Shown: piece by piece, positions 12,850-15,361 of the stretch
Layout of the letters: each line of letters begins with the position of its first letter
How positions within the stretch are numbered: position 1 is the stretch's first letter
Origin: an uncultured Bryobacterales bacterium
Lineage (GTDB): Bacteria; Acidobacteriota; Terriglobia; Bryobacterales; UBA6623
DNA length: 64,000 nt
Assembly (NCBI GenBank): GCA_958295955.1
Contig: OY282420.1
Location: forward strand, 462,236-526,235
Direction of reading: 5' to 3'
Notes under the pieces: model-generated
Seen by the model: the letters and a program-made list of their open reading frames with translations, nothing else
The model's database searches: none
Told to the model about the DNA's origin: nothing
Translations under genes and position numbers: made by a program

Positions 12850-14382
12850 ATGCGGCGGCGATTCACTCTCGCGGCGGCCGTTCTGCCTGCGTTGGCGCTT
12901 GCCGCGGCGGACGACAGGCCGAACATCCTGTTCGTGATGAGCGACGACCACGCCGCGCCGGCAATCGGCGCCTACGGCGGCGGTCTCATCCAAACGCCGA
13001 ACATCGACCGCCTCGCCGCCGAGGGCGTCCGCTTCGACAACGCGTTCTGCACCAATTCGATCTGCACTCCCAGCCGGGCCGTAGTGCTCACGGGGAAACA
13101 CAGCCACCGCAACGGAGTCTTCACCCTGAGCGACGTTTTCGACGGCTCGCAGCAGACCGTTGCGCGGCTGCTGCAGGCCGCCGGATACCACACCGGCGTA
13201 GTCGGCAAATGGCACCTCAAGAGCGCGCCGGCGGGCTTCGACGAATACGCCGTGCTGCCGGGACAGGGACTCTACTACGACCCGCAAATCCGTCGTAAAG
13301 GCGCTTGGCCCGAGACCGAAACGCATCCCGGCTACGTCACCGACGTAATCACCGACCTGGCGCTCGAGTTTTTGCGGGAGCGGCCCGCCGGCAAGCCCTT
13401 CTTCCTGATGTATCACCACAAGGCGCCGCACGATGTCTTCGTGCCCAAGCGCGAGCACCGCGGCCTGTTCGCCGGGCCGATACCCGAGCCTCGGAATTTG
13501 CTCGAGGACCGCCGCAACCGGCGGGCGCTGCGGGACACCACCGAGGAAGTCGGCGGCAAGCATCTTGCCTACGGCAATCCCGCCTGGCGCTGGTTTCTCG
13601 AACGCGTGCGCTACGAACCCGAGGAAATCGACCGCTGGGAGCGGGAGTTGGCCGGCCTCGCGGGAGACCGCCTCAAGCGCGCGCAATACCGCATCTACAT
13701 GCGTCGCTATCTGCAATGCGTCTATGCCATCGACGAGAATCTCGGCCGCGTGCTCGACTACCTCGACCGCGAGAATCTGGCCGCGGACACCGTCGTAATC
13801 TACACCTCCGACCAAGGCTTCTTCCTCGGCGAGCACGGACTCTACGACAAGCGCTTCATGTACGAGGAAACGCTGCGGATTCCGCTGCTGGCGCGCGCCC
13901 CGGGACGCATCCCGGCCGGCTCGGTCAGCAGCGCCCTGGTGCAGAATCTCGATTTCGCCCCCAGCATGCTCGACTGGGCCGGAGCGGCGATTCCCGAGGC
14001 GATGCAGGGCCGCAGCTTCCGGTCCATAGCCGAAGGCCGCCCGCCCGGTGATTGGCGCAGCGCGATCTACTACCGTTATTGGATGAACCGCGCCCACTTC
14101 AACGTTCCGGCGCACCTCGGCGTGCGGACGGACCGTTACAAGCTGATCTATTTCTACGACGACCCGCGGGGTTCCGACGGCAAGACGCCGGTCGCCGGCG
14201 CCCGTGCGAACGTCGGGGAGCGTTTCTGGGAACTGTACGATCTCAAGGAAGACCCCCGCGAGATGCGCAATCTCTACGGGCAGGAAGCCTACGGCCCCAT
14301 CGCCGCGCAACTCAAAGAGCGGTTGAACGCCCTGCGCGAAGAGTACGGCGATGCGGCCTTCCCGGCAACCGCTTCACCGTAA
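12850..14382 (+). CDS. Type I sulfatase
   Basis: A 510-aa exported sulfatase, hydrolysing sulfate esters, probably on a polysaccharide. It has a short hydrophobic signal, the metal-binding NILFVMSDDHA, the modification site CTPSR with Cys72 that must become formylglycine, GKWHLK, and a second metal site SDQGFFLGEHG. A formylglycine-generating enzyme must be supplied from elsewhere, as none is in the window. The last 105 bases, including the stop, belong to a 146-bp sequence found again 938 bases further on (see the repeat entries), but this copy of the gene is intact. Confidence 0.93.
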   Translation: MRRRFTLAAAVLPALALAAADDRPNILFVMSDDHAAPAIGAYGGGLIQTPNIDRLAAEGVRFDNAFCTNSICTPSRAVVLTGKHSHRNGVFTLSDVFDGSQQTVARLLQAAGYHTGVVGKWHLKSAPAGFDEYAVLPGQGLYYDPQIRRKGAWPETETHPGYVTDVITDLALEFLRERPAGKPFFLMYHHKAPHDVFVPKREHRGLFAGPIPEPRNLLEDRRNRRALRDTTEEVGGKHLAYGNPAWRWFLERVRYEPEEIDRWERELAGLAGDRLKRAQYRIYMRRYLQCVYAIDENLGRVLDYLDRENLAADTVVIYTSDQGFFLGEHGLYDKRFMYEETLRIPLLARAPGRIPAGSVSSALVQNLDFAPSMLDWAGAAIPEAMQGRSFRSIAEGRPPGDWRSAIYYRYWMNRAHFNVPAHLGVRTDRYKLIYFYDDPRGSDGKTPVAGARANVGERFWELYDLKEDPREMRNLYGQEAYGPIAAQLKERLNALREEYGDAAFPATASP

Positions 14383-14423
14383 CCGCTTCACCGCACCCAT
14401 TTCACCATGAACTGCACGAGCGC
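14278..14423. repeat. 146-bp direct repeat, left copy
   Basis: This copy contains the last 35 codons of the sulfatase, the intergenic bases, and a copy of the last 12 codons of the GNAT gene (in reverse). It matches 15216-15361 except for two bases (near 14293 and 14356). Identity stops sharply after GAGCGC at 14423, where the inserted sequence begins. Confidence 0.93.
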
Positions 14424-15264
14424 ACACCCGAATTCACTCGACCACATTCGAGAAATGTTTGAGATGGCCTGCTCCAATGGTTCGCCATTTCCACCGACGA
14501 TTGTCTATGAGGAAGGATGGCTGCTGCGGCTGGTGTTGAATTGGTTCGATGCCAACAGATGCGCAGCAGAATATTCTTTATCATTCAAGAAGTGTGCGCG
14601 CTGGTTTTCTGAAGCCAGCCTAGTCTCAGCATTCTTGCTGAGACAGCAAGGCGATAAACTTACCGAGAGGCACACACACGCCGATGGCGTCATCGGGCAC
14701 TTCAGCATATGTTCCTCCACGAAATCGAAACTGGTCTTAGACCCGGATGCGACCCAGTTCGTAGTTGTTGAGGCCAAGATGTTTAGTGATCTATCGGAAG
14801 GGATCAAAAATGCGCCAAAGAAGTACAATCAAGTAGCCCGGACGATTGCCTGTATGGCGGAAGTGATCCGGTGCTCAGGCCGGGAACCAGCCGATATCGG
14901 GAACTTGTCGTTTTATATCGTTGCTCCCGAGAGTAGGAAAGAAAATTTCGATGAATTCATTGACCGAAAGGTCATAAAGAATCAAGTAAAATGCCGGTTC
15001 AACAACTATACCAACGCTAATAAAAACAATAACTATGTCCTTCCTAAGACCGATTGGTACAAGGAATGGTTCACGCCGACATTGAAGGCAATAAAAATTA
15101 AAACCATCTATTGGGAAGACATCATTTCGTTCATCACCTGCAAAGACGATGCATTCGGTCGAGATCTAAACGCGTTCTACCAGCGATGCCTGTGCTACAA
15201 CCGTCAGACCAAGAAGGGCAGGAAGCCTACGTCCCCATCGCCGCGCAACTCAAAGAGCGGTTGA
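14407..15264 (+). CDS. PD-(D/E)XK nuclease-like protein, inserted
   Basis: A 285-aa protein with a plausible PD-(D/E)XK core: Asp93 in HADGVIG, then VVVEAKM with Glu122 and Lys124, spaced as in restriction-endonuclease-like folds, followed by a helix with conserved-looking YNQVARTIACMAEV. This suggests a DNA-cleaving enzyme, perhaps an orphan restriction endonuclease. The DNA is clearly poorer in G+C than both neighbours, a sign of transfer. The ATG at 14407 lies in the left repeat; the first in-frame ATG outside it is 14458 (MFEMACS). The last 16 or so codons run into the right repeat, so the native C terminus has been replaced. No methyltransferase is adjacent. The nuclease assignment is inferred from motif spacing only. 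Confidence 0.72.
   Translation: MNCTSAHPNSLDHIREMFEMACSNGSPFPPTIVYEEGWLLRLVLNWFDANRCAAEYSLSFKKCARWFSEASLVSAFLLRQQGDKLTERHTHADGVIGHFSICSSTKSKLVLDPDATQFVVVEAKMFSDLSEGIKNAPKKYNQVARTIACMAEVIRCSGREPADIGNLSFYIVAPESRKENFDEFIDRKVIKNQVKCRFNNYTNANKNNNYVLPKTDWYKEWFTPTLKAIKIKTIYWEDIISFITCKDDAFGRDLNAFYQRCLCYNRQTKKGRKPTSPSPRNSKSG
14424..15215. mobile_element. Low-GC insertion bounded by a long target duplication
   Basis: 792 bases of unique sequence plus one copy of the 146-bp repeat make a 938-bp unit placed between two convergent genes. It holds essentially only the nuclease gene. No transposase, terminal inverted repeats or integrase are present. Both flanking genes keep a complete 3' end because each repeat copy carries both ends, as expected when the target itself was duplicated. 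Confidence 0.8.
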
Positions 15265-15361
15265 ACGCCCTGCGCGAAGAGTACGGCGATGCGGCCTTTC
15301 CGGCAACCGCTTCACCGTAACCGCTTCACCGCACCCATTTCACCATGAACTGCACGAGCGC
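15216..15361. repeat. 146-bp direct repeat, right copy
   Basis: Second copy of the sequence at 14278-14423. It carries the true 3' end of the GNAT gene and a duplicate of the sulfatase tail (stop at 15318-15320) that is detached from any sulfatase. The upstream border is GGGCAGGAAGCC; identity is lost before 15216. Confidence 0.93.

Follow-up and report, generated by a model that had tools for sequence, protein, structure and literature searches.

A lone PD-(D/E)XK-like nuclease gene between 146-bp direct repeats of host sequence: probable insertion with long target duplication in a Bryobacterales genome

By what means do solitary restriction and defence genes move in the absence of transposases? 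The question is raised by a locus in the window analysed here, a 64,000-nucleotide stretch (C1:462236-526235) of the 4.44-Mb contig C1 from an uncultured Bryobacterales bacterium, whose genome of 4.58 Mb is assembled in three contigs with a completeness of 95.5%. Between a sulfatase gene and a GNAT acetyltransferase gene lies a lone nuclease gene, flanked on both sides by long direct repeats of host sequence. How did this gene arrive, and what duplicated the ends of its neighbours?

Anatomy of the repeats and the insert

The features of the locus, numbered from the first letter of the window, are as follows.

12850..14382, + strand: sulfatase gene, complete (PF00884, E=8.5e-56); its last 105 bp lie inside the left repeat copy
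14278..14423, no strand: left repeat copy, containing the sulfatase 3' end, 5 bp and the GNAT 3' end (36 bp); it gives ATG 14407 to the nuclease ORF
14407..15264, + strand: nuclease ORF, 285 aa, PD-(D/E)XK-like; the right repeat copy encodes its ~16 C-terminal residues
14424..15215, + strand: 792-bp low-GC insert made up of nuclease coding sequence that lacks a start and a stop codon of its own; borders from the repeat alignment
15216..15361, no strand: right repeat copy; the nuclease ORF stops in it at TGA 15262-15264, and GNAT has its native 3' end here
15326..15814, - strand: GNAT acetyltransferase gene, complete (PF00583, E=2.4e-12); its last 36 bp lie inside the right repeat copy

The two copies of the direct repeat (14278-14423 and 15216-15361) are identical at 144 of 146 positions (98.6%), which is far above chance expectation over this length, and across the whole 4.58-Mb genome the repeat occurs at these two sites only. 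The 792-bp insert has a GC content of 0.470 compared to 0.64 in its flanks. According to the ORF list, it contains no transposase, recombinase, methyltransferase or other sizeable gene-like ORF besides the nuclease, and its ends carry no terminal inverted repeats. One of the two mismatches (14294 G, 15232 T) corresponds to Gly or Val in the sulfatase frame, at a residue that varies across orthologues, and the other (C/T at 14361 and 15299) is silent; neither can be polarised. Both copies contain, right at the sulfatase stop, a tandem duplication of a 14-bp unit (AACCGCTTCACCGT; 14367-14393 and 15305-15331).

When the insert and one repeat copy are removed, the sulfatase and GNAT genes become convergent neighbours with 5 bp between their stop codons. 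Each repeat copy serves one neighbour while its other half is surplus, which is the layout expected of a target duplication. Both neighbours have their 3' ends within the duplicated block, which is why the host genes are unbroken. The sulfatase orthologues in 11 genomes of the same family are 67-70% identical and have a C-terminus of similar length; downstream of them we found neither the nuclease nor GNAT. The GNAT orthologues, at ~54% identity, align as far as residues 158-161 of the 162 and have other gene neighbours. The layout of the locus, and not a comparison of states before and after the event, strongly suggests an insertion with target duplication.

The first-pass annotation had described two 146-bp copies with two mismatches around a low-GC 792-bp segment, with the 3' ends of both convergent genes in each copy and with the sulfatase and GNAT genes left intact. 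Its description was borne out by the repeat alignment, the GC contents, the ORF ends and the PF00884 and PF00583 matches. It had also described the passenger as a lone nuclease inserted without a transposase, which agrees with the ORF content of the insert; by its low GC, the insert is foreign in composition.

The nuclease ORF borrows its ATG (14407) from the left copy and its TGA (15262-15264) from the right copy, and since the insert is in frame with both, the nuclease is readable. The insert itself contains no in-frame stop, and its first internal in-frame ATG (14455) falls behind conserved positions; the frame was open in none of 2000 shuffles of the insert. When aligned, the nuclease's relatives start and end approximately at the insert borders. 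The insert thus comes close to a coding sequence stripped of its start and stop.

Transposons and insertion sequences are likewise bordered by direct target repeats. However, those repeats usually measure from a few to ~14 bp, whereas the repeats at this locus are 146 bp long and come without a transposase or terminal inverted repeats.

The nuclease and its relatives

Eight positions are invariant in 15 aligned sequences (T31, E36, W38, D93, E122, K124, Q142 and R145), and three of them, D93, E122 and K124, make up a D...E-x-K catalytic motif kept in all 15. The first-pass annotation had called the protein PD-(D/E)XK-like and had suggested a structure prediction. The predicted model (pLDDT 85.6, with a low-confidence tail at residues 277-285) orders a helix (36-49), three strands (65-73, 89-97 with D93, and 117-123 with E122), a second helix (142-156) and a further strand (166-173). 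This predicted alpha-beta-beta-beta-alpha-beta core, with the motif on its second and third strands, is the topology of the PD-(D/E)XK superfamily. The best PDB matches found with Foldseek were NotI, LmuA (Lamassu), a McrBC chain and HamA (Hachiman), all weak (E 0.05-0.14), and PD-(D/E)XK enzyme entries account for four of the five best matches (best E=0.05, also weak). Motif, predicted topology and these top but weak matches agree with the original call. Unlike known members of the superfamily, the nuclease has no significant match in the structure search (best PDB E=0.05) and none to a family in Pfam, NCBIfam, PADLOC or PHROGs.

Using a degenerate DNA pattern for (S/T)HADx(V/I/M)IGHF, we retrieved relatives from Proteobacteria, Halanaerobiales, Acidobacteria, Myxococcales, Caldilineaceae and others, most of them 35-45% identical. 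The nuclease is a member of an unnamed, sparse, putatively PD-(D/E)XK-like family with ~15 relatives in several phyla. There was no match to it in plasmids, phages or viral contigs, no second copy in its own genome, and no close relative in a peptide-pattern scan of genome contigs.

Several relatives have candidate defence genes close by. One in a Halanaerobiales genome (L032:1751-4782) lies directly behind brxL and is possibly a BREX accessory gene; another has a ScaI-type endonuclease ~1.2 kb away (L048), a third (L036) adjoins a candidate defence gene of the PDC-S11 type, and a fourth (L020) an IrrE-type gene. The nuclease likely has a restriction-like defence role, with a putative nuclease activity. 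At L045:1200-2702, a relative forms part of a 500-aa fusion, in which it follows a second, N-terminal domain that looks DUF429-like by eye.

We found no direct repeats longer than ~30 bp around the gene at any of 15 homologous loci, ~7 of which extend at least 1 kb on both sides while the rest are shorter on one side. This negative is good but incomplete, and it indicates that the long duplication is not a property of the nuclease family.

Similar scars elsewhere in the genome

We surveyed direct repeats by listing isolated pairs over 2.0 Mb of the window's 4.44-Mb contig, with 0.4 Mb of the relative G006 as a control. One pair surrounds a different restriction-type gene.

C1:220106-220193 and 222739-222826: direct repeats of 88 bp, 100% identical, around a 2545-bp insert with 53% GC

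The 2545-bp insert contains one large gene that encodes a 709-aa protein with GmrSD_N and SLFN_AlbA_2 domains (PADLOC HEC-05). Next to this gene lies one of 55% GC for a DNA methyltransferase that has an Mrr-like tail (C1:218373-220034). The right 88-bp copy forms the 3' end of a gene for a product that reads by eye as M48-peptidase-like, and both contexts retain a stop codon, TAA with the right copy and TAG with the left. This site is a second independent case with different cargo, and it is as clear as the nuclease locus.

A third case looks looser and older. At C1:714838-716934, 197-bp direct repeats (95%) surround a 1.7-kb insert of 56% GC that encodes a CsgG-like protein, and the left copy contains the 3' end of a hydratase/FAH-like gene. 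Restriction-type cargo is thus present in two of the three best cases, one of which was the starting point of the survey; with so few cases, this is suggestive only. No comparable case was found in the 0.4 Mb of G006, where fewer than one would be expected even at an equal rate.

Three other pairs were initially read as target duplications and then rejected. The pair at C1:1537092 looks like a duplicated small gene. The one at C1:3537039 belongs to a chimeric region around ankyrin genes: ~265-bp repeats (97-99%) flank 7.3 kb of ankyrin-repeat genes (C1:3537039-3544767), and the left copy is fused to a fragment resembling an SRP-type GTPase. In the region at C1:592456-595674, a rhodanese-like gene has been duplicated in scrambled form: two short pieces of it recur in changed order beyond an inserted gene for a PMT-like membrane protein. 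As a looser case, these scrambled pieces (C1:592456/595570) are the kind of trace left by template switching.

Origin of the duplication

We favour, with a probability of about 0.6, an explanation whereby a foreign 792-bp piece of DNA encoding a restriction-type nuclease was inserted once between the two convergent genes and illegitimate recombination duplicated 146 bp of the target. The nuclease would then be the cargo of this event and not its mover. In the order of events that we infer, a fork or repair synthesis would leave the host template at 14423, the foreign fragment would be copied or joined, and synthesis would resume on the host template 146 bp back, at 14278, in a backward template switch. 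Alternatively, a staggered break followed by fill-in would create an identical product. Neither route would need an enzyme encoded by the insert.

The scar of the second restriction-type gene, together with the scarless relatives of the nuclease, points to the recombination machinery of the recipient rather than to the gene. The same two observations speak against any idea that the long duplication is brought about by the nuclease gene: long repeats were found at 0 of 15 homologous loci, and a different restriction-type gene has the same scar. As the search of the genome for Ku was negative, classical non-homologous end joining is unlikely, and we dropped Ku/LigD end joining as a candidate route. 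The genome does contain ComEC, which makes uptake of DNA possible. Against the favoured explanation count the small number of clear cases, two, and the G006 control of only 0.4 Mb. Reading the event as the work of the recipient's machinery makes a genome-wide test possible.

Several other histories could leave the same layout. A circle carrying the nuclease and one 146-bp target copy, for example one that RecA had excised between the repeats of an insertion in a related strain, could have integrated at the same site by homologous recombination in a Campbell-type event. A stretch of 146 bp is sufficient homology for RecA, the product would look identical, and the two mismatches could be strain differences that the circle carried. 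Such an event, however, merely shifts the first insertion into another strain, and with a single nuclease in the genome, the repeat confined to this locus and no plasmid or phage record containing the gene, we regard it as unlikely. Several tandem and dispersed short duplications exist in the genome, so the 146-bp block might have been duplicated in tandem beforehand and the nuclease DNA joined between its copies later, but this history demands an insertion exactly at the copy junction with no base lost, and demands it twice (also at C1:220106), which makes it very improbable. An assembly or binning artefact could be suspected because the genome, with its three contigs and 95.5% completeness, may have been assembled from a metagenome. 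Yet the site sits well within a 4.44-Mb contig, its copies differ at two positions, neither the host genes nor the nuclease frame are disrupted and a second independent case is found in the same contig; an artefact can hardly be credited.

The remaining alternatives give the cargo, or its class, a more active part. A self-mobile nuclease gene would nick or cut its target in a staggered manner and insert with a long target duplication, as suggested for restriction-modification (R-M) genes. Both cases in this genome carry restriction-type genes, the class with reported long target duplication (PMC1643837, PMC3031569), and the borders of the insert coincide almost exactly with those of the coding sequence. 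Self-mobility is nevertheless quite unlikely given the absence of long flanking repeats at all 15 homologous loci, the lack of relationship between the two cargo proteins (PD-(D/E)XK-like versus GmrSD/AlbA_2) and the presence of one nuclease copy in this genome. More ambitiously, a dedicated transposase-free process might bring in restriction-type genes, lone nucleases included, and duplicate ~100-150 bp at convergent gene ends, in which case the genome would contain two of its independent products with unrelated cargo nucleases; we hold this to be a doubtful proposition. The second restriction-type gene with a like scar does hint at a poorly understood, transposase-free route of entry.

The closest known parallel, already noted by the first-pass annotation and upheld by the shared anatomy, is the insertion with long target duplication linked to R-M genes in Helicobacter pylori, as relayed by later papers (Nobusato et al. 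2000, via PMC1643837, PMC3031569, PMC3154945 and PMC4978471). The same accounts describe the H. pylori polymorphism as having been recognised by comparing two strains, whereas the insertion here is read from the anatomy of one locus. As in H. pylori, the cargo is of restriction type and lacks a transposase, long direct repeats of host sequence stand at both ends and the host genes are intact. Unlike the H. pylori insertions, the cargo is a lone nuclease without a methyltransferase, and so not an R-M complex, and the insert is trimmed to the coding sequence, taking its start and stop from the repeat copies. We rate the event as one of a known kind, the insertion with long target duplication; what is new is the lone nuclease and its borrowing of a start and a stop from the duplicated target. 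The locus is a clean, readable example of a long target duplication that spares both neighbours and can even provide the incoming gene with its start and stop.

Between 14200 and 15450, we found no sigma-70-like promoter, and by eye there is no Shine-Dalgarno-like motif ahead of ATG 14407. The nuclease ORF shares both strand and frame with the sulfatase, and the agreement in frame could be due either to chance or to selection. If the nuclease is expressed, it would probably be read through from the sulfatase, as the second gene behind it.
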